64,000 nucleotides of DNA. Origin: Microbispora sp. NBC_01189 (GTDB lineage Bacteria > Actinomycetota > Actinomycetes > Streptosporangiales > Streptosporangiaceae). A program made the translations under genes and the position numbers. Positions 19,554 through 30,859 of the stretch are shown here, piece by piece. The notes beneath the pieces were generated by a model. It saw only the letters and a list, made by a program, of their open reading frames with translations. It did no database searches and was not told the DNA's origin. Where the stretch lies: positions 7,501 through 71,500 of the forward strand of contig NZ_CP108581.1 of assembly GCF_036010665.1 (NCBI RefSeq), written 5' to 3'. Position 1 is the stretch's first letter. Each line of letters starts with the position of its first letter.

Positions 19554-20761
<1,208 letters not shown>

Positions 20762-21856
20762 TCAGGCGAAGTCGGGGGTGCCGGTGGGCAAGGTAAATCG
20801 GAACTCGGCGCCGCCGCCGGGCGCGCGCTGCACGCTGATCGTGCCGCCGTGGGCCTCGACGAGACCCTTGACGATGAACAGGCCGAGGCCGGTGCCTCCG
20901 CGGCGGCGGCCGTTGCCCCGCCAGAACTGGCGGAAGACGCGGCCGACCAGCTCGGGCGCCACGCCCTCGCCCTGGTCCCGCACCGACACCGCCACACCCC
21001 ACTCGACCGGCTCCACCACTACGGTCACGGTACCGCGTCCGTGGCGCACCGCGTTCTCCACCAGGTTCCCGAGAACCTGGTCGATCTTGTCCTGGTCGAG
21101 CCACGTCTCGGGCAGTTCCCCGAGGACCTCCAGCCGGAAGCGGTCCTCCGGCTCCCCCGCGGCCGCCCGGCCGGCGATGATCCGGCGCGCCCGGGCCGGC
21201 ACGTCCACGACCTGCCGGTGGATCTCCAACCGGCCCGACTCGATCCGCGAGACGTCGAGGAGCTCCGTGATCAGTCGCGTCACCCGGTCGGCGTCCGCGT
21301 TGACCGTCTCCAGCATGACGAGCCTCTGCGCGTCGGTCAGCCGCTCCCACTTCGCCAGCAGGGTCGCGGTGAACCCCTTGACGCTGGTCAGCGGAGAGCG
21401 CAGCTCGTGTGCGACCGTGGAGACCAGATCGGCGCGGCTGCGTTCGACCCGCGCCCGCGCCGACGCGTCGCGCAGCGTGATGACGACCCGCCGCACCTCG
21501 CCGCCGCGCTCCGGCTCCCGGACGAAGCGCGCGGCGACCAGCAGTTCCTGCCGTCCGGGCAGGTGCAGCGGCCGTTCGGGCTGGCGGCTGCGGGTGCACA
21601 GCCCGCCGTGCGGGTCGAGCCACTTCCACCAGTCGCGGCCGTCCTGGTCGCGCAGCGGCAGCACGTCACCGATGACCCGGCCCACCGCCGCCCGCCGGGT
21701 CACCCCGGTCAGCCGCTCCGCCGCCCGGTTGACCATCAGGATCACACCGTCGGGGTCGGTGGCGACGAGGCCGTCGGGAAGGTCGTCGACGTCGATGCGC
21801 GCCCGCCCTCCGGCGTCCCCTTCAGGGGTGCCGCCGGGGGTGTCGTCACCTCGCAC
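20762..21856 (-). CDS. Orphan PAS-domain sensor histidine kinase
   Basis: Soluble two-component sensor kinase, 364 residues, with no predicted membrane segment. The N-terminal PAS-like domain (about 20-130; DLPDGLVATDPDGVILMVN and ERLTGVTRRAAVG) may sense a ligand or redox state. The HisKA domain has the phospho-acceptor in STVAHELRSPLTSVKGF. The ATPase domain shows N box DQVLGNLVENAVRHG, G1 DQGEGV and G2 GGTGLGLFIVKGL. GTG 21856 has GGAGG 8 nt upstream. No response regulator is adjacent: neighbours are rlmB-like and pheS, so the partner is elsewhere. Confidence 0.9.
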   Translation of the reverse strand: MRGDDTPGGTPEGDAGGRARIDVDDLPDGLVATDPDGVILMVNRAAERLTGVTRRAAVGRVIGDVLPLRDQDGRDWWKWLDPHGGLCTRSRQPERPLHLPGRQELLVAARFVREPERGGEVRRVVITLRDASARARVERSRADLVSTVAHELRSPLTSVKGFTATLLAKWERLTDAQRLVMLETVNADADRVTRLITELLDVSRIESGRLEIHRQVVDVPARARRIIAGRAAAGEPEDRFRLEVLGELPETWLDQDKIDQVLGNLVENAVRHGRGTVTVVVEPVEWGVAVSVRDQGEGVAPELVGRVFRQFWRGNGRRRGGTGLGLFIVKGLVEAHGGTISVQRAPGGGAEFRFTLPTGTPDFA

Positions 21857-21952
21857 GAGACCGCCTCCTGACGCTCCGGAACTGCGCGCGCCGCCCCTTC
21901 CCGCGCGGCTTCTTCGCCGACAATAGCGGGTTTCCGCGGCGCCGCAGCAGCC

Positions 21953-22786
21953 TCAGCGGCCAGGGGTGGTGGGTTCTTCCACGGTTTGTAAGGTCTGCCG
22001 CTGAACACGCGCGGAAGAGTAGAGACACACCGCCGCGGCGGTGGCGAGATTGAGGCTCTCGGCCCGTCCGTAGATCGGGACGCGGACGACCTCGTCGGCC
22101 AGGGCGAGGAGCTCGGGCGGCAGCCCCCACGCCTCGTTGCCGAACAGCCAGGCGGTGGGCGCGTCCAGCGCGACCTCGTCGAGCGTCCGGGTGCCCGCTC
22201 CGTCCGCGGCCAGCACGCGCAGCCCGGCCTCCCGCACGTGCCGTACGGCGTCGGCAACGGAGGTGCCGGTCACCACGGGGAGGTGGAAGAGGCTCCCCGC
22301 GCTCGCCCGCACGCACTTGCCGTTGTACGGGTCGACCGAGGCGTCGGTGAAGACCACGGAGTCGGCGCCCGCGGCGTCGGCCGTACGCAGGACGGTGCCC
22401 GCGTTGCCGGGGTCGCGGACGTGGGCGAGGATCGCCACCAGCCGGGACGTGGGCGTGACCGCCTCCGCCAGCGGGACGTGCACGAACCGGCACACGGCCA
22501 GCAGCCCCTGCGGAGTGACGGTCTGGGTCAGCTCGGCCATGACCTCGCCGCTCGCCCGGTGCACGGGCACGCCGGCCGCGTGGGCGGACGCCAGGATGTC
22601 GGCGTGCCGCGCCTCGGCCTCGACCGTCGCGAACAGCTCCGCCGTGACGTCCTTGACCGCGAGCGCCTCGCGGACCGCCTGCGGCCCCTCGGCGAGGAAC
22701 GCCCTGTCCCGGTCGCGGAAGGCGCGTTTGGTCAGCCTGCGGGCCGCCTTGACCCGCGGCGACCTGATGTTGGTGAGCTCCGCCAT
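21953..22786 (-). CDS. SpoU/TrmH-family RNA 2'-O-methyltransferase
   Basis: SAM-dependent ribose methyltransferase of the SPOUT class, probably acting on 23S rRNA; 277 residues. An N-terminal substrate-binding domain contains KRAFRDRDRAFLAEGPQAVR. The knotted catalytic domain has the three SpoU motifs: VRDPGNAGTVLRTADAAGAD, AWLFGNEAWGLP and VPIYGRAESLNLATAAAVCL. It lies 68 nt after rplT on the same strand, beyond a terminator-like hairpin, the usual place for an rlmB/tsnR-type gene in actinomycetes. A thiostrepton-resistance-type methylase cannot be excluded from sequence alone. Confidence 0.9.
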   Translation of the reverse strand: MAELTNIRSPRVKAARRLTKRAFRDRDRAFLAEGPQAVREALAVKDVTAELFATVEAEARHADILASAHAAGVPVHRASGEVMAELTQTVTPQGLLAVCRFVHVPLAEAVTPTSRLVAILAHVRDPGNAGTVLRTADAAGADSVVFTDASVDPYNGKCVRASAGSLFHLPVVTGTSVADAVRHVREAGLRVLAADGAGTRTLDEVALDAPTAWLFGNEAWGLPPELLALADEVVRVPIYGRAESLNLATAAAVCLYSSARVQRQTLQTVEEPTTPGR

Positions 22787-22810
22787 CCCTGCTCATTCCC
22801 CCTTGACGTC

Positions 22811-22844
22811 GATGAGGGCCCACCGCAGGCGGCGGGCCCTCGTC
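22811..22844 (-). terminator. Terminator-like hairpin after rplT
   Basis: GATGAGGGCCC and GGGCCCTCGTC can pair over 11 positions (one non-Watson-Crick pair) around a 12-nt loop, 11 nt past the rplT stop. There is no T-tract. Confidence 0.6.
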
Positions 22845-22854
22845 GGAGCAGGTC

Positions 22855-23235
22855 TCAGGCGACCGGCGCGTTCACGTCGGACGGGAGCGCCTTCTTGGCG
22901 GACTCGACCAGCGTGGCGAAGGTCGGGGCGTCATTGACCGCGAGGTCCGCGAGGATCTTGCGGTCCACCTCGATGCCCGCGAGGCGCAGGCCCTGGACGA
23001 ACCGGTTGTAGGTCATGCCGTTGGCGCGGGCCGCCGCGTTGATCCGCTGGATCCACAGACGGCGGAACGTGCCCTTCTTGTCCTTGCGGTCCCGGTACGC
23101 ATAGGTCATCGAGTGGAGCATCTGCTCCTTGGCCTTGCGGTAGAGGCGCGACCGCTGCCCCCGGTAACCGCTTGCCCGCTCGAGTACGACCCGGCGCTTC
23201 TTCTTGGCGTTGAGCGCCCGCTTCACGCGTGCCAT
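22855..23235 (-). CDS. rplT: 50S ribosomal protein L20
   Basis: Early 50S assembly protein that binds 23S rRNA. The 126-residue protein begins [20 protein letters not shown], with the basic N-terminal extension typical of L20, then [37 protein letters not shown] and [14 protein letters not shown]. It is the last gene of infC-rpmI-rplT, 25 nt after rpmI. In some bacteria L20 represses this operon by binding the leader; the leader here does not obviously mimic its rRNA site. Confidence 0.98.
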
Positions 23236-23260
23236 GTTGTTCTATCTCCCCGGGTCGTTA

Positions 23261-23455
23261 CTACTTTGCGAGCAGCTTCTTGATCTTCTTGGTGTCGGCG
23301 TCGGACATGACGACGGCACCCTCCAGACGGCGCGTACGGGTGGACGGCTTGTGCTCGAACAGGTGCTGCCGGTTGGCGCGGCGGCGGACAACCTTGCCGG
23401 TGCCGGTGAGCCGGAACCGCTTCTTCGCACCGCTGTGCGTCTTCATCTTCGGCAT
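23261..23455 (-). CDS. rpmI: 50S ribosomal protein L35
   Basis: Small basic 50S protein of 64 residues, the usual length. It starts [20 protein letters not shown] and contains [20 protein letters not shown]. It lies between infC and rplT as in nearly all bacteria. Confidence 0.98.
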
Positions 23456-23532
23456 CTCAGCCGTCTCTCCCTCTTTGGTCCGTGCCGACGGCCCGGGCCG
23501 GTAACCCGAGCCCGGCGGCCTGCCTGGCTCCG

Positions 23533-23551
23533 CGAGACCGTCCCGGTCTCG
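23533..23551. other. Hairpin in the infC-rpmI spacer
   Basis: CGAGACCG-TCC-CGGTCTCG is a perfect 8-bp stem in the 144-nt gap between infC and rpmI. It could be a processing site or weak terminator that sets the ratio of IF-3 to L35/L20; there is no T-tract. Confidence 0.35.
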
Positions 23552-23599
23552 GATTCCGCGTGTCGATACGTGCGCCCCGCCCGGTGGTTCAGGCGGGCG

Positions 23600-24223
23600 T
23601 CACTGCGCCGGGGCGGCCTGCTCCTGCTCCTGCTCCTGCGCGGATTCCTCCGCCGGGAGGTCCTCGTCCCGGTGCGCCTTGGCGGCGGCCTTCTCGGCCC
23701 TCGCCTCGGCCTTCTTCTTGTGCGGCCCGATCACCATGATCATGTTTCGGCCGTCCTGCTTCGGCTGCGACTCGACGAACCCCAGGTCGGTGACGTCTTC
23801 GGCGAGGCGCTGCAGGAGCCGGAAACCCAGCTCTGGCCGGGACTGCTCGCGGCCCCGGAACATGATCGTGACCTTGACCTTGTCGCCGGCCTTGAGGAAG
23901 CGCACGACGTGACCCTTCTTGGTCTCGTAGTCGTGCGGGTCGATCTTCGGCCGAAGCTTGATCTCTTTGATGATCGTGTGTGCCTGGTTGCGACGGGCCT
24001 CGCGCGCCTTCATGGCCGACTCGTACTTGAACTTGCCGTAGTCCATGAGCTTGCAGACGGGCGGGCGGGCCGTGGCCGCTACCTCCACCAGGTCGAGATC
24101 GCTCTCCTGCGCCAGCTTCAACGCGTCTCCGATGGAGACGATGCCGACCTGTTCGCCGTTCGGGCCGACGAGGCGGACCTCGGGCACACGAATACGGTCG
24201 TTGATGCGGGGCTCGGTGCTGAT
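23600..24223 (-). CDS. infC: Translation initiation factor IF-3, probable ATC start
   Basis: IF-3 binds the 30S subunit, proofreads initiator tRNA and start codon, and prevents subunit joining. The protein is [20 protein letters not shown] onward, with [20 protein letters not shown] and [11 protein letters not shown] in the N-domain and [18 protein letters not shown] in the C-domain, then an acidic/Gln-rich tail (207 residues). I place the start at ATC 24223: homology begins exactly at this Ile, GGAGG lies 4 nt upstream (24228-24232), and non-canonical starts are characteristic of infC, allowing IF-3 to repress itself. An in-frame ATG at 24292 would add 23 residues encoded by the terminator hairpin and has no Shine-Dalgarno, so I reject it. 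Confidence 0.93.
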
Positions 24224-24255
24224 GGGACCTCCAAAGGACTTCCGCTTGTCTCGAC

Positions 24256-24299
24256 CGTGCGGGGAAAAACGAAAACCCCGCACGTCACGCATGCGGGGT
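24256..24299 (-). promoter_or_regulatory. infC leader attenuator: terminator and competing antiterminator
   Basis: On the minus strand ACCCCGCATG pairs with CGTGCGGGGT-side bases to give a 10-bp stem (one G-U pair) with a 5-nt loop (24275-24299). It is followed directly by TTTCGTTTTT (24265-24274), a textbook intrinsic terminator 42 nt before the infC start. Its right arm, CGTGCGGGG (24276-24284), can instead pair with CCCCGCACG (24256-24264) to form a 9-bp antiterminator that uses the U-tract as loop. The two are mutually exclusive. A five-codon leader ORF runs through the left arm. Confidence 0.8.
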
Positions 24300-24302
24300 C
24301 AC
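24285..24302 (-). CDS. Five-codon leader peptide ORF upstream of infC
   Basis: GTG-ACC-CCG-CAT-GCG-TGA encodes Met-Thr-Pro-His-Ala. AGGAG lies at 24309-24313, 6 nt upstream, a better initiation site than infC itself has. Codons 2-5 make up the left arm of the terminator and the stop codon is in its loop region. A ribosome at the start codon would mask the left arm and favour antitermination; one that has left would let the terminator form. Existence and role are inferred from layout. Confidence 0.5.
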
Positions 24303-24485
24303 TGAGCTCTCCTGCCGAAAACTCCGGTGTGATCCTGAACCCGTCCGCTTTTCGGCGGAGCAGGTGGGAGGAGGACCTCCGCTTGCGCGTCCAGCTTATG
24401 CCGGACCGATCGAGTTCCTACCTTACCACAAACCCGGGCGGCCCCCGGCGTATTCCGGCCTGGGCCGCCCTGCCCCCGAAGGCGC

Positions 24486-25325
24486 TCAGGAGGCCGCGCG
24501 CCGGGCGACCTCGGCCTCGCCGGCCGCGCGCATCGCGGCGACCGGCACGTCCGTCCGGCCCGTCATGAGTCCGACCTGCCGCGCCGCCTGGTGCAGCAGC
24601 ATGGGGAGGCCGCCCACGACGGTGCGCCCCCGCGCCCGTACGGCCCGGGCCAGCGCCGTCGGCCAGGGCGCGTAGACGACGTCGAACACGGCCCCCTTGT
24701 CGGGCAGGCGGGCCGCGACCCGCTCGGCCAGCGCGTCGGCCGCGCCGGACGGCAGCGTGGAGATGACCAGGCCGGCCGCGGGGTCGAAGTCGTCGAAGGA
24801 GCGCACGGTCACCGCGACGCCGAGCCGCTCGGCGACGCGCAGGGTCTCCCCCGCGCGGGCCGGGTCGCGCACGACCAGGGTGGCCTCCGCGAGGCCCGTC
24901 TCCCGCAGGGCGGCGAGGGCCGAGGCCGCGGTGGCGCCGCCGCCGAGGACGACCGCCGAGGACGGCGCGGGCACGCCCGCCTCGGTCAGTGTCTCGACGA
25001 TGCCGTACACGTCGGTGTTGTCCCCGTGCCGCCCGCCGTCGCGGAACACGACCGTGTTGGCGCCGCCGACCGCCAGGGCGAGATCCGAGACGGTGTCGAG
25101 CAGCGGGAGCACGGCGCGCTTGAGCGGCATCGTGAGCGACAGGCCCGCCCACTCCGGGCCCAGCCCCGCCATCAGGCCGGCGAGCCCGTCCTCGGCGCAT
25201 TCGATCGCGTCATAGCGCCAGCCGCCCAGACCCATCTCCGCGTACGCCGCCCGGTGCAGGACGGGGGAGAGCGAGTGGGCCACGGGCGAGCCCAGGACGG
25301 CGGCCCGGCGGATGGTCTCGCTCAC
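24486..25325 (-). CDS. aroE: Shikimate dehydrogenase
   Basis: NADPH-dependent reduction of 3-dehydroshikimate in the chorismate pathway; 279 residues. AAVLGSPVAHSLSPVLHRAA holds the shikimate-binding SxS motif, LSLTMPLKRAV the catalytic Lys, GGANTVVF and DNTDVYGIVETL the substrate Asn/Asp. VVLGGGATAASALAAL is the nucleotide loop. LLHQAARQVGLMTGR is the C-terminal family block. It starts at GTG 25325, overlapping the mltG stop (GTGA), so it is translationally coupled to the upstream lytic transglycosylase. Gene order alaS-ruvX-mltG-aroE is conserved in actinobacteria. Confidence 0.94.
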   Translation of the reverse strand: MSETIRRAAVLGSPVAHSLSPVLHRAAYAEMGLGGWRYDAIECAEDGLAGLMAGLGPEWAGLSLTMPLKRAVLPLLDTVSDLALAVGGANTVVFRDGGRHGDNTDVYGIVETLTEAGVPAPSSAVVLGGGATAASALAALRETGLAEATLVVRDPARAGETLRVAERLGVAVTVRSFDDFDPAAGLVISTLPSGAADALAERVAARLPDKGAVFDVVYAPWPTALARAVRARGRTVVGGLPMLLHQAARQVGLMTGRTDVPVAAMRAAGEAEVARRAAS

Positions 25326-26476
25326 TGGTAGTTCCTGTTGAACTCGTCGCGCAGCTTCCAGAACTCCGACTCCTTGTCGGTGAACTTGGTGATGCCCCGC
25401 TTCGGGTCGACCGTCACGAAGTAGAGCCAGTTGCCGTCCGCCGGATGCAGCGCGGCCTCGATCGCGTGGTCGCCCGGGTTGCTGATCGGGCCGGGCGGCA
25501 GGCCGGCGTACTTGTAGGTGTTGTAGCGCGAGGTGCTGGTCAGGTCCGCGTGCGAGGCGGCGATGCCGTACTTGTTCAGGCCGTACATGACCGTGCTGTC
25601 CATGCCCAGTTTCATGGGGGGGTTCGACAGCAGCCGGTTGTAGACGACGCGGGCCACCTTGGGCATGTCCTCGGCGCTGCCCGACTCGGCCTGGACGATG
25701 CTGGCGATGATCATGATCTGCCGGGGCGAGAAGCCGACCTGCCCGGCCTGGCCATCCAGGTCGATCTTGTCGGCGGTCTGGTTGAACCGGTCGACCATGC
25801 TGGTGAGGATCTGCTGCGGCGTGAGCTTGCTGTTGATCTCGTACGTCGCGGGGAACGCGTAGCCCTCCAGCCGGCCCTTGGCGTACGCGGGGAGGCCGAT
25901 GTCGGCGCGGGCCGCCTTCTTGAAGTCCTCGACCGGCTTGCCCGAGGCGGTGGACAGCTCCTCGAAGATCTTGCTGAGCCGCAGCCCCTCACGGATGGTG
26001 AGCCGGTTGAGCACGCGGTTCTTCGGGTCGAGGAGGGTCAGCGCCGAGGCGGCGGACATGCCCTTGCGCATCGCGTACTGGCCCGGCTGGAGCGAGGAGC
26101 TCTTCCCGGCCGCGCCGATGGCGTTGACGAACGCCCGCGCGCTGGCCACGACGCCCTGCTCCTCCAGCATCTGGGCGACGTCGGTGGCGCTCTCGCCCTC
26201 CTGGATCTCGACCACGACCTCACCCGTCCCCTCGCCGGTGAAGTCATTGGGGATCATGACGCCGCGCGCCCAGGTGAAGCCCAGGTAGCCGAGACCCGCG
26301 AGGACCGCGACGATGATCACTAAGGCGAACAGCGTGGCGACCCTGCCCTTGCGCCGCTGCCGCTTGCGGCGCCGGCGGCTGCGTCGCTGCTGGGCCCGGC
26401 CGCCGGAGGGGCGACGCCGGGGAGAGCCGTCGTCGTCCTCGGCGCCGAGCAGGAAGTCCATGTCCAGATCGTTCAT
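25322..26476 (-). CDS. mltG: Endolytic peptidoglycan transglycosylase MltG
   Basis: Inner-membrane enzyme that cuts nascent glycan strands and so sets glycan length. The 384-residue protein has an Arg-rich cytoplasmic N-terminus (about 20-48), one membrane segment (ATLFALVIIVAVLAGLGYLG), a LysM-like region, and the YceG catalytic domain. EGYAFPATYEI, IIASIVQAESGSAEDMPKVA (catalytic Glu in VQAE), RLLSNPPMKLGMDSTVMYGL and YNTYKYAGLPPGPISNPG are visible. ATG 26476 (MNDLDMDFLLGAEDDDG) is preferred although its Shine-Dalgarno is weak; an upstream in-frame start at 26584 would run through the repeats. A second mltG lies directly upstream. Confidence 0.93.
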   Translation of the reverse strand: MNDLDMDFLLGAEDDDGSPRRRPSGGRAQQRRSRRRRKRQRRKGRVATLFALVIIVAVLAGLGYLGFTWARGVMIPNDFTGEGTGEVVVEIQEGESATDVAQMLEEQGVVASARAFVNAIGAAGKSSSLQPGQYAMRKGMSAASALTLLDPKNRVLNRLTIREGLRLSKIFEELSTASGKPVEDFKKAARADIGLPAYAKGRLEGYAFPATYEINSKLTPQQILTSMVDRFNQTADKIDLDGQAGQVGFSPRQIMIIASIVQAESGSAEDMPKVARVVYNRLLSNPPMKLGMDSTVMYGLNKYGIAASHADLTSTSRYNTYKYAGLPPGPISNPGDHAIEAALHPADGNWLYFVTVDPKRGITKFTDKESEFWKLRDEFNRNYQ

Positions 26477-26539
26477 AGTGCGCTGGCCAATCTCTCGGTT
26501 CGAGAGGCCTCCCGTCAAGCGAGTGTGCCAGACCGAGGG

Positions 26540-26580
26540 GGTCCGGTGGGGGTCCGGTACGGGTCCGGGCATGAGTCCGG
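26540..26580. repeat. Four direct repeats of about 11 bp between the two mltG genes
   Basis: GGTCCGG occurs at 26540, 26551 and 26562, and AGTCCGG at 26574, giving spacings of 11, 11 and 12 bp. The one-helical-turn spacing is like that of direct-repeat operators such as actinomycete PHO boxes, though the sequence differs from that consensus. It lies about 65-105 bp before the downstream mltG start. Confidence 0.5.
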
Positions 26581-26643
26581 ACAAGGGGACGTTCGCCTAC
26601 CGCGGGCCGTCCGGGCGGCGCCCTGGACGCGCCGGGGGCACCG

Positions 26644-27678
26644 CTAGTTCGTCCCGAGATACCTGTTCAGCTCCTCCCGATATTTCCTGAACTCCATCTC
26701 TTTGTCAGTGAATTTGGTGATTTTACGACGAGGATCGGTGGTCACGAACCAGTACCAGGCGCCCTCGGCGGGGTGGAGCGTCGCCAGCAGCGCGCTCTCC
26801 CCCGGGTTGCCGATGGGTCCGGGCGGCAGCCCGGGGCGCGCGTAGGTGTTGTACGCGGAGCCGTTGCGCGTGTCCTCGGCGGTGACCTTCAGGGTGTGCC
26901 GGTTCAACGCGTAGTTGACCGTGCTGTCCATCTCCAGCTTCGCGCCCCGCGCCAAGCGGTTGTACACCACTCTGGCGATCTTGGGGTAATCGGCCGGGAC
27001 GCCGCCCTCGGCCTGCACGATGCTCGCGACCGTCACCGCCTGCCGGGGCGTGAGGTGCAGGCGCGGCGCCAGCTCCTCCAGGCCCACCTTCTTCGCGGCG
27101 AGGCGGAACCGCGCCACCATCTTCCTGAGCATGTCGCCGGCGGTCGCCCCCGGCTCTATCTCGTACGTGGCCGGGAACAGGAACCCCTCGGCCTCGCCCT
27201 CGGCGTACGCGGGCAGGCGCAGGCGCCGCGACTCTCCGGCGGCCTCGGTGAAGTCCCGCAGCGGGATGCCCGTCCCCTCCGCGAGGACGCGCAGCACCTC
27301 GCCCATGCGCAGCCCCTCAGGCACGGTGACCCTGCGCACCACCCGGCTCGCGGGCGCCAGGAGCAGGTCGAGGGCGGCGGAGGCCGACATGCGCTGCCGC
27401 AGGACGTAGCGGCCCGGGTGCAGGCCGCTCTCCTTGGATCGGGCGATCACCTGCTCCACGAACGACTGGGCGCTGGCGACCACGCCGGCCTTCGCCAGCG
27501 TCCGGCCGACCTCGCCCGCGCTCGTCCCCGGTGTGATCTCGATCGTCACCGTCCCCGAACCGCCGCCGGAGTAGTCGGGCGGGCTGCCGGGCTGGCCGAC
27601 GACCGCGTGCACGCCGTACGCCACCGCCGCCGCGACCAGGGCGAACCCTCCGCCGGCGACGAGCGCCGCGCGCCTCAC
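26644..27678 (-). CDS. Second MltG-family transglycosylase
   Basis: Paralogue of the adjacent mltG (344 residues) with the same C-terminal design: EGFLFPATYEIEPGATAGDM, VTVASIVQAEGGVPADYPKI (catalytic Glu retained), RLARGAKLEMDSTVNYAL, YNTYARPGLPPGPIGNPG and KITKFTDKEMEFRKY. It lacks the long Arg-rich cytoplasmic tail: the membrane segment starts almost at residue 1 (MRRAALVAGGGFALVAAAVA). It starts at GTG 27678, overlapping the ruvX stop by GTGA. Two complete tandem copies are unusual; one may be specialised, for example for sporulation or branching (inference). Confidence 0.92.
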   Translation of the reverse strand: MRRAALVAGGGFALVAAAVAYGVHAVVGQPGSPPDYSGGGSGTVTIEITPGTSAGEVGRTLAKAGVVASAQSFVEQVIARSKESGLHPGRYVLRQRMSASAALDLLLAPASRVVRRVTVPEGLRMGEVLRVLAEGTGIPLRDFTEAAGESRRLRLPAYAEGEAEGFLFPATYEIEPGATAGDMLRKMVARFRLAAKKVGLEELAPRLHLTPRQAVTVASIVQAEGGVPADYPKIARVVYNRLARGAKLEMDSTVNYALNRHTLKVTAEDTRNGSAYNTYARPGLPPGPIGNPGESALLATLHPAEGAWYWFVTTDPRRKITKFTDKEMEFRKYREELNRYLGTN

Positions 27679-28178
27679 CGGGCGGTCCCGCCGCTCGCTT
27701 CCTCACCCGGCCCCGCGGAGGGGCCCGGTGGTCCGAGAGGCCTGCCGGGGGGACTGCCGGTGGCCCGCTCACCGTCGAGCGCGGCCTGCAGCAGCAGGAC
27801 GGCCGCCGCCTGGTCGATCACGTCACGCTGGTCGCGGGCCTTCACGCCGCTGGAGCGCAGCCGCTGCTGGGCGCCCACGGTGGTGAGCCGCTCGTCCACG
27901 AGCCGGATCGGGACCGGCGCGACGCTGCGGGCCAGCCGCGCGGCGAACGCCCGCGCGGCCTCCGCGGCGTGGCTCTCGCGGCCCGACAGCGAGGTGGGCA
28001 GGCCGACGACGATCTCGATCGCCTCGTGCTCGGCCGCGATCTCGGCGATCCTCGCGAGGTCGCCCCGGCCGCGCCGTACGGTCTCCACCGGCGTGGCCAG
28101 CAGTCCCGAGGGGTCGCTGCGGGCCACGCCGACGCGGACGGAGCCGACGTCGACCCCGATCCTGACGCCATGTCTCAT
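27675..28178 (-). CDS. ruvX: RuvX/YqgF-family RNase H-fold nuclease (Holliday junction resolvase-like)
   Basis: RNase H-like protein implicated in 16S pre-rRNA 5' end processing and possibly junction resolution. The 167-residue protein starts MRHGVRIGVDVGSVRVGVAR (the first catalytic Asp in GVDVG). IVVGLPTSLSGRESHAAEAA carries the family GLP block, VDERLTTVGAQQRL the Glu, and KARDQRDVIDQAAAVLLLQ the C-terminal Asp. A Pro/Gly-rich tail of about 30 residues follows. It lies 7 nt after alaS, the standard alaS-ruvX pairing. ATG 28178 is preferred over an in-frame upstream start with no family similarity. Confidence 0.92.
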   Translation of the reverse strand: MRHGVRIGVDVGSVRVGVARSDPSGLLATPVETVRRGRGDLARIAEIAAEHEAIEIVVGLPTSLSGRESHAAEAARAFAARLARSVAPVPIRLVDERLTTVGAQQRLRSSGVKARDQRDVIDQAAAVLLLQAALDGERATGSPPGRPLGPPGPSAGPGEEASGGTAR

Positions 28179-28185
28179 CGGCGGA

Positions 28186-30859
<2,674 letters not shown>

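Follow-up and report, generated by a model that had tools for sequence, protein, structure and literature searches.

The infC-rpmI-rplT locus and the start of infC

The window, by which we mean the whole stretch of 64,000 nucleotides from Microbispora sp. NBC_01189 that was analysed, carries on its minus strand an aroE-like gene, a leader region, infC, rpmI and rplT, in that order. All names were assigned from the sequences.

23600..24223, minus strand: infC (IF3), start codon ATC at 24223-24221, Shine-Dalgarno sequence TTTGGAGG
23261..23455, minus strand: rpmI (bL35), named from sequence
22855..23235, minus strand: rplT (bL20), named from sequence

The start codon of infC is ATC in every one of the 169 upstream regions that we gathered (169/169). 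Among the frames with a usual start codon, the longest for infC opens at an ATG at position 24292 (window 24292-23600); as this codon lies inside the terminator hairpin of the leader, automated gene calling may give IF3 about 23 spurious residues. It is likely that the ATC at 24223 is the true start and that gene callers are apt to pick the ATG at 24292. In E. coli, where infC starts with ATT, IF3 autoregulates through the non-canonical start codon, and in Streptomyces IF3 feedback runs through a non-canonical ATC start, as the covered passages of PMC5472188 describe. The ATC start of the window’s infC resembles both arrangements, and IF3 probably acts here through a separate translational feedback at the AUC start codon of infC. 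Control of this kind concerns the translation of infC; it is distinct from the attenuator described below and lies downstream of it. An earlier suggestion that a short leader ORF senses IF-3 or the rate of initiation found no support in our analysis, and IF3 feedback is to be expected from the ATC start of infC.

Two further observations concern genes. Upstream of the aroE-like gene lie two adjacent look-alike genes (window 27678-26644 and 26584-25322), which we take to resemble MltG/YceG lytic transglycosylases, and their likeness in sequence would be compatible with a possible tandem duplication. One genome of the family (G098, C1:1410-1808) has an extra partial infC-like match near a contig start, with 83% identity over residues 50-183, possibly a second or broken copy of infC.

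The leader itself is densely packed, and its features are given here in the order of transcription.

24420..24425, minus strand: -10-like box TAAGGT, with a transcription start predicted near 24413
24331..24412, minus strand: leader domain in which P1 closes P2, P3 and P4 (model R1, covariation)
24408..24411, minus strand: P1 5' strand GAUC (helix 1, changes on both sides in 4/4 pairs)
24389..24406, minus strand: P2 hairpin GUCCGGC/GCUGGAC (helix 2, changes on both sides in 7/7 pairs)
24374..24388, minus strand: predicted antiterminator 5' strand GCGCAAGCGGAGGUC (fold made before the right arm, swap test)
24367..24380, minus strand: P3 hairpin GGAGG/CCUCC (helix 3, changes on both sides in 4/7 pairs, 2 invariant)
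24339..24365, minus strand: P4 hairpin ACCUG..CGGGU (helices 4 and 5, 2/3 and 5/6 pairs)
24331..24334, minus strand: P1 3' strand GAUC (alignment, covariation)
24313-24309, minus strand: Shine-Dalgarno-like AGGAG (sequence)
24285..24302, minus strand: five-codon ORF GTG ACC CCG CAT GCG TGA, 6 nt after AGGAG, apparently incidental
24287..24300, minus strand: predicted antiterminator 3' strand, overlapping the terminator left arm
24274..24300, minus strand: terminator hairpin, arms 24300-24290 and 24284-24274, loop CGUGA
24265..24273, minus strand: rest of the U-rich tail (sequence)
24256..24264, minus strand: downstream strand CCCCGCACG, apparently lineage-specific and no antiterminator

Every element that the preliminary description had placed on the minus strand is present where it was put: AGGAG, the ORF, the hairpin, the U-rich tail and CCCCGCACG. 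The hairpin count and the fold statistics against shuffles place the terminator above chance. A scan of 401 bases, both strands included, gave two terminator-like sites, compared to 0.2 expected from shuffles; the terminator hairpin has 11 pairs and the other site has 5. The 56-nt piece that holds the terminator folds at -22.1 kcal/mol (z -2.4, matched by 4/200 shuffles), and the fold of the whole leader (24420-24215) beats 200/200 shuffles (z -3.5). When the right arms of 45 leaders were matched with their own and with foreign left arms, a positive control for the swap tests below, the right arm tracked its own left arm with a mean rank of 0.056.

A four-helix domain conserved in front of infC

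The preliminary description had missed the domain at 24412-24331, the upstream neighbour of the terminator, which holds a competitor for it. To compare leaders we collected infC upstream regions from two sources. The GTDB family of the window gave 30 loci, infC being matched in 116 of 120 genomes, and a set of named genomes gave 80 more, chosen from 566 candidates. Of these 110 loci, 109 carry the motif NAAG(C/T/A)GGA(A/G) followed by YCCCACC before infC, and the remaining locus, L105, has a variant. Alignment A1 holds 23 cut regions including the window, five of the 28 chosen having been dropped for want of a detectable 3' end, and model R1 was built from these 23 seeds. With a cut-off of E up to 1, R1 matched a single place in the genome from which the window comes, window 24331-24412 (E 1e-14), the window being one of its seeds. 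The domain is a four-helix junction made of P1 (GAYC/GGUC or GAUC), P2, P3 (GGAGG/CCUCC) and P4 (ACCYG/CRGGU plus an inner stem).

Covariation was assessed on alignment A2, with 98 distinct rows. In A2, whose fit to R1 and its structure favours these figures, 90.6% of cells pair compared to 75.5% after shuffling, both sides change in 22/27 pairs compared to 15.2, and 387 cells show changes on both sides compared to 105 after shuffling and at most 70 with slid structures. These counts include a second match in L163 that is probably spurious (E 0.077), and one pair of P3 (Y:A) is present in only 37/98 rows. An independent structure prediction on A1 recovered P2, P3 and P4 but missed P1, because the P1 3' strand is misaligned in A1. 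In two leaders, L044 and L045 (the latter from Kitasatospora), P3 appears much enlarged, with an antiterminator strand CAAGAGGAGGCUCC apart from the usual CUCCCACC; in L045 the terminator pairing is retained.

A large part of the class carries the domain. R1 matched, at E up to 0.01, 7/12 class members, including the genome of the window, and 0/137 other genomes of the phylum, 122 of the 137 being the unlisted remainder; at E up to 0.1 it matched 183/296 class genomes. Model R2, built from 99 aligned matches, found the domain at E up to 0.01 in 200/296 sampled class genomes, a count that is partly circular since R2 was built in part from genomes later searched, and gave no match under strict filters in the other 96. 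In a sample of the phylum R2 matched 22/26 genomes within the class and 0/270 outside it, 254 of the 270 being unlisted and put outside the class by list order. Both the R1 and the R2 searches used strict filters, with which weak matches are lost. We fetched 60 matches, chosen among the R1 matches listed for the 296 class genomes and drawn from 36 families, and all 60 precede infC (59 by pattern and on the same strand, and L178 with a changed residue). Motifs of rplT were found in 75/80 and of rpmI in 72/80 of the loci L031-L110.

A promoter-like sequence accompanies the domain. TANNNT occurs at most 24 nt upstream of the P1-region GAYC in 148/153 leaders, compared to about 26% of shuffled windows (5/158 leaders have no GAYC and were dropped). 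A general sigma-70 scan found no promoter. Several promoters, one of them SigR-dependent, are described for infC in Streptomyces in the covered passages of PMC5472188, so that some transcripts may begin elsewhere.

In two Streptomyces loci that were scanned, the leader coincides with an RNA already in Rfam. RF02830 (Scr1601) matches the Streptomyces locus L047 at 1199-1415 with 187 bits, starting two bases ahead of the domain and reaching the U-run, and the Streptomyces leader L039 with 163.6 bits. A Streptosporangium-type leader, L007, scores 33.7 bits, below the 100-bit threshold; at E up to 1, RF02830 was absent from L067, L104 and L105, and window 20000-30000 matched no Rfam family at the same cut-off, Scr1601 included. 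Of the six loci scanned besides the window, L047 and L039 reached the threshold. The window shares the place and the anatomy of Scr1601: promoter, P1 to P4, terminator and infC. Scr1601 was reportedly first described by Vockenhuber et al. in 2011. According to the covered part of PMC8388888, expression was confirmed for 11 ncRNAs of S. coelicolor, scr1601 among them. Premature transcription units have been catalogued in S. clavuligerus (17 riboswitches, 37 known and 96 novel, in the portion of PMC8269248 covered), and these may include the infC leader.

Predicted competition for the left arm of the terminator

The two states of the leader are apparent when the window RNA is folded at different lengths. 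Ending before the right arm, it forms 13 antiterminator pairs (24388-24374 with 24300-24287); extended up to the U-run, it folds as the P1-P4 domain plus the terminator. The 5' strand of P3 is common to P3 and the antiterminator, and the left arm is common to the antiterminator and the terminator. By computation, then, an antiterminator and an intrinsic terminator exclude one another here, as in an attenuator.

Many other leaders show a like arrangement. Our leader statistics cover 163 leaders, 158 of them distinct, with 5/59 new leaders (degenerate core), L178 and L105 left out. A stricter terminator detector, some of whose picks still look wrong, found a terminator in 137/158 distinct leaders and none in 21/158. 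The best duplex between the core and the downstream sequence overlaps the left arm by at least 5 nt in 121 of the 137 leaders with a terminator, and the mean energy of this duplex is -24.4 kcal/mol, compared to -20.4 kcal/mol with the downstream sequence shuffled. The corresponding energies in the window are -27.4 and -19.9 kcal/mol, and 0/20 shuffles equal the window’s own. Among the 132/158 leaders in which both a terminator and a promoter-like start were found (41 after dereplication), at least 6 antiterminator pairs form before the right arm in 119/132 leaders and in 36/41 of the dereplicated set, while five rounds of shuffling the core left the same fold in 10, 13, 13, 10 and 16 of 41. 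The minimum-energy fold at full length holds the terminator in 79/132 leaders (34/41 dereplicated), and the antiterminator persists in 21/132 (5/41 dereplicated). In two leaders of family f6, L186 and L196, the terminator reads GCCCUGCU..AGCAGGGC, and the complement of the left arm seems by eye to have moved to the linker between P2 and the core (CAGCA); our core to left-arm measure counts both as misses.

A swap test, in which a segment of each leader is matched to the left arm of the same leader and to those of others, was run on 45 leaders dereplicated from 122 with a good-score terminator. The variable loop of P3 favoured the left arm of its own leader (mean rank 0.292, p 6e-5, n=45), and so did the core plus the loop (0.282, p 2.4e-5, n=45). 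The conserved core alone gave no signal (0.492, p 0.85, n=45); none is expected of an invariant core, so the co-evolution rests on the variable loop. Among the negative controls (n=45), P4 stood at 0.513 (p 0.65) and the P2 strand at 0.421, near significance (p 0.06). A version blind to the terminator, which used the whole downstream sequence, gave a mean rank of 0.371 (p 0.0017, n=57), with controls at 0.556 and 0.491. The window’s own ranks were unremarkable (0.114 for the core plus loop and 0.159 for the loop), and its rank of 0.93 in the terminator-blind test speaks against the switch. Across leaders, these sequence comparisons support co-evolution of the P3 loop and the terminator left arm.

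A different switch had been proposed for this leader: a ribosome on the ORF that starts at 24302 would cover the left arm, the right arm would be free to pair with CCCCGCACG, and the rate of initiation, or IF-3, would be the signal. Each of its elements exists, and among close relatives of the window there is something to be said for it. For this comparison we set apart 36 close-relative leaders with a terminator, a grouping of our own (loci L001-L036 and a few named ones), from the 101 others, some of which come from the same GTDB family as the window. The ORF is identical in 15/36 close relatives and one base off in 4 more (19/36), but its stop codon has become CGA in 16/36, and it occurs in 0/101 of the others. 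More loosely, any ORF ending in the hairpin is found in 21/36 close relatives and 12/101 others, and such an ORF plus a Shine-Dalgarno-like site in 9/36 and 0/101. Since the codons of the ORF are also an arm of the terminator, its conservation among close relatives is explained by the hairpin, and the ORF looks incidental. Over the 36 and the 101 leaders taken together we found no conserved leader ORF with a start codon and Shine-Dalgarno site, the mark of a ribosome-mediated attenuator.

The downstream strand of that proposal fared somewhat better in the window than across the class. The 9-bp match between the right arm and CCCCGCACG is above chance in the window (0/50 shuffles), where the pair has the best possible swap rank (0.0), and at least 8 bp can form between the right arm and the downstream sequence in 9/34 leaders of the close group. 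Across 45 dereplicated leaders, however, there is no sign of co-evolution (mean rank 0.470, p 0.53). Topology also points against it, since CCCCGCACG is transcribed only once RNA polymerase is beyond the U-run and so could not prevent termination. With the left arm accounted for by the alternative pairing upstream, we find a ribosome-operated switch on the five-codon ORF hard to credit. Directly after the terminator (window 24259-24249), the sequence CACGRUCGAG recurs in many close-relative leaders, and its conservation does not follow the sequence of the terminator arm. We also considered and set aside a further switch between the downstream GGUCGAG and a 5' CUCGAUC in the leader fold, a pairing that by eye is lost in several close relatives.

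What the leader may sense

The presence of the domain, the terminator, the competing pairing and their conservation over much of the class are supported by the computations above; the locus belongs to a family of structured attenuators. The preliminary view that an attenuator precedes infC-rpmI-rplT thus agrees with what is apparent here, with a terminator above chance and a competing pairing found by computation. Taking these results together, we lean towards an attenuator operated by the structured RNA domain and switched off by a ligand, for which bL20 is the best guess, with IF3 feedback as a separate layer. In such a mechanism, the P1-P4 domain would fold while RNA polymerase moves off the promoter. 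If nothing holds the domain, GCGCAAGCGGAGGUC would capture the terminator’s left arm by base pairing once that arm is made, the terminator would be blocked, and infC, rpmI and rplT would be transcribed. If a ligand holds the domain, GCGCAAGCGGAGGUC would remain in P3, the terminator would form, and termination near 24265 would release a leader RNA of about 150 nt. Here we infer that a ligand exists and that its binding means OFF; the ligand would most likely be an operon product that, when in excess, stabilises the domain.

Free bL20, which the operon encodes in its last gene, is our preferred ligand by analogy. Control of infC-rpmI-rplT has been described in E. coli and B. subtilis (review, PMC10931766, in the part covered), and in B. 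subtilis the binding of L20 stabilises a terminator before the same operon (PMC6097659 and PMC10931766, covered passages). In L20 leaders, two consecutive G-C pairs and an AA dimer are reported to recur (PMC7247131, covered portion). The most conserved bases of our domain include an AA followed by a nearly invariant paired GG (GG:CC), which may recall those elements: in AAGYGG the two A are kept in 99/99 and 98/99 rows, and the final GG in 99/99 and 98/99. These two points are the grounds on which we favour bL20. The 23S rRNA of the same genome carries CUAAGUGGG, which we take to be the L20 site; its match to AAGUGG is six bases long, short enough that it could be due to chance. The domain also lies before an operon that encodes bL20, as a functional L20 leader would.

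Alternatively, the leader could belong to a new class of riboregulator that senses IF3 or another signal of the translational state and not bL20. IF3 would then close, in actinomycetes, a transcriptional loop on top of the translational loop at the AUC start, and Scr1601 would be the waste left by an initiation-factor sensor that occurs widely in the class. We think this unlikely, though worth bearing in mind.

Two narrower forms of the same switch can be distinguished. The domain might be held by IF3 itself or by bL35, which would make it a sensor of an initiation factor rather than of bL20. Position cannot separate the three products, as 60/60 fetched matches lie before infC, but IF3 feedback is already plausible through the AUC start (PMC5472188, covered passages), and in B. 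subtilis the operon is attenuated by way of L20 (PMC6097659, covered passages); we give these two ligands a low probability. The switch might also answer to another signal, be it a small molecule, another RNA-binding protein or, in the absence of any ligand, an effect of transcription speed or ppGpp on folding kinetics. The invariant nucleotides and the junction of four helices would suit a riboswitch, but all 60 fetched matches precede a translation gene. A position before a translation gene is commoner for ribosomal protein leaders than for metabolite sensors, and a signal of this kind seems to us rather improbable.

That Scr1601-type RNAs are trans-acting sRNAs lying before infC by chance fits their Rfam type and the way they are reported in PMC8388888, but the reading is very doubtful given the related domains before infC in 60/60 fetched matches, the competition of antiterminator and terminator in cis, and the S. 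ambofaciens homologue of scr1601, found in a UTR according to the covered part of the same paper. RF02830 spans the infC leader, P1 to P4 included, through to the terminator in two Streptomyces loci. Unlike the leader described here, however, Scr1601 is catalogued as an sRNA, with neither an antiterminator nor a role for infC described in the covered part of PMC8388888. The attenuator, if real, would explain what this Rfam ‘sRNA’ is. In the covered portions of the open-licence full-text literature we found no mention of the attenuator or of an actinobacterial infC leader as a regulator.

Among the closest known systems is the Firmicutes L20 leader (RF00558). It serves the same operon, and L20 there is reported to favour the terminator of the infC leader (PMC6097659 and PMC10931766, covered passages). 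The domain of the window, by contrast, has no sequence or structure match to RF00558, which was found in 0/21 genomes while the control matched in B. subtilis. With no homology to the Firmicutes leader seen in these genomes, we rejected common descent with it. The Deltaproteobacteria L20 leader candidate of Eckert and Weinberg 2020 (PMC7247131) offers a parallel of another sort, as a separate scaffold proposed, in the covered portion, to present the AA dimer and two G-C pairs; it belongs to another group and regulates another gene, and the text and table lines covered of that paper list no actinobacterial infC-operon leader. The ribosome-mediated attenuators of actinobacteria (table of PMC8079986, as covered) share with our leader a choice between terminator and antiterminator in the 5' leader, but here there is no conserved leader ORF outside close relatives. 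If true, a structured attenuator in a large part of the class to which Streptomyces belongs would represent a separate solution to the control of infC-rpmI-rplT. Should bL20 be what it senses, the domain would add one more scaffold to the known L20 leaders, and should it be IF3, a new kind of sensor.
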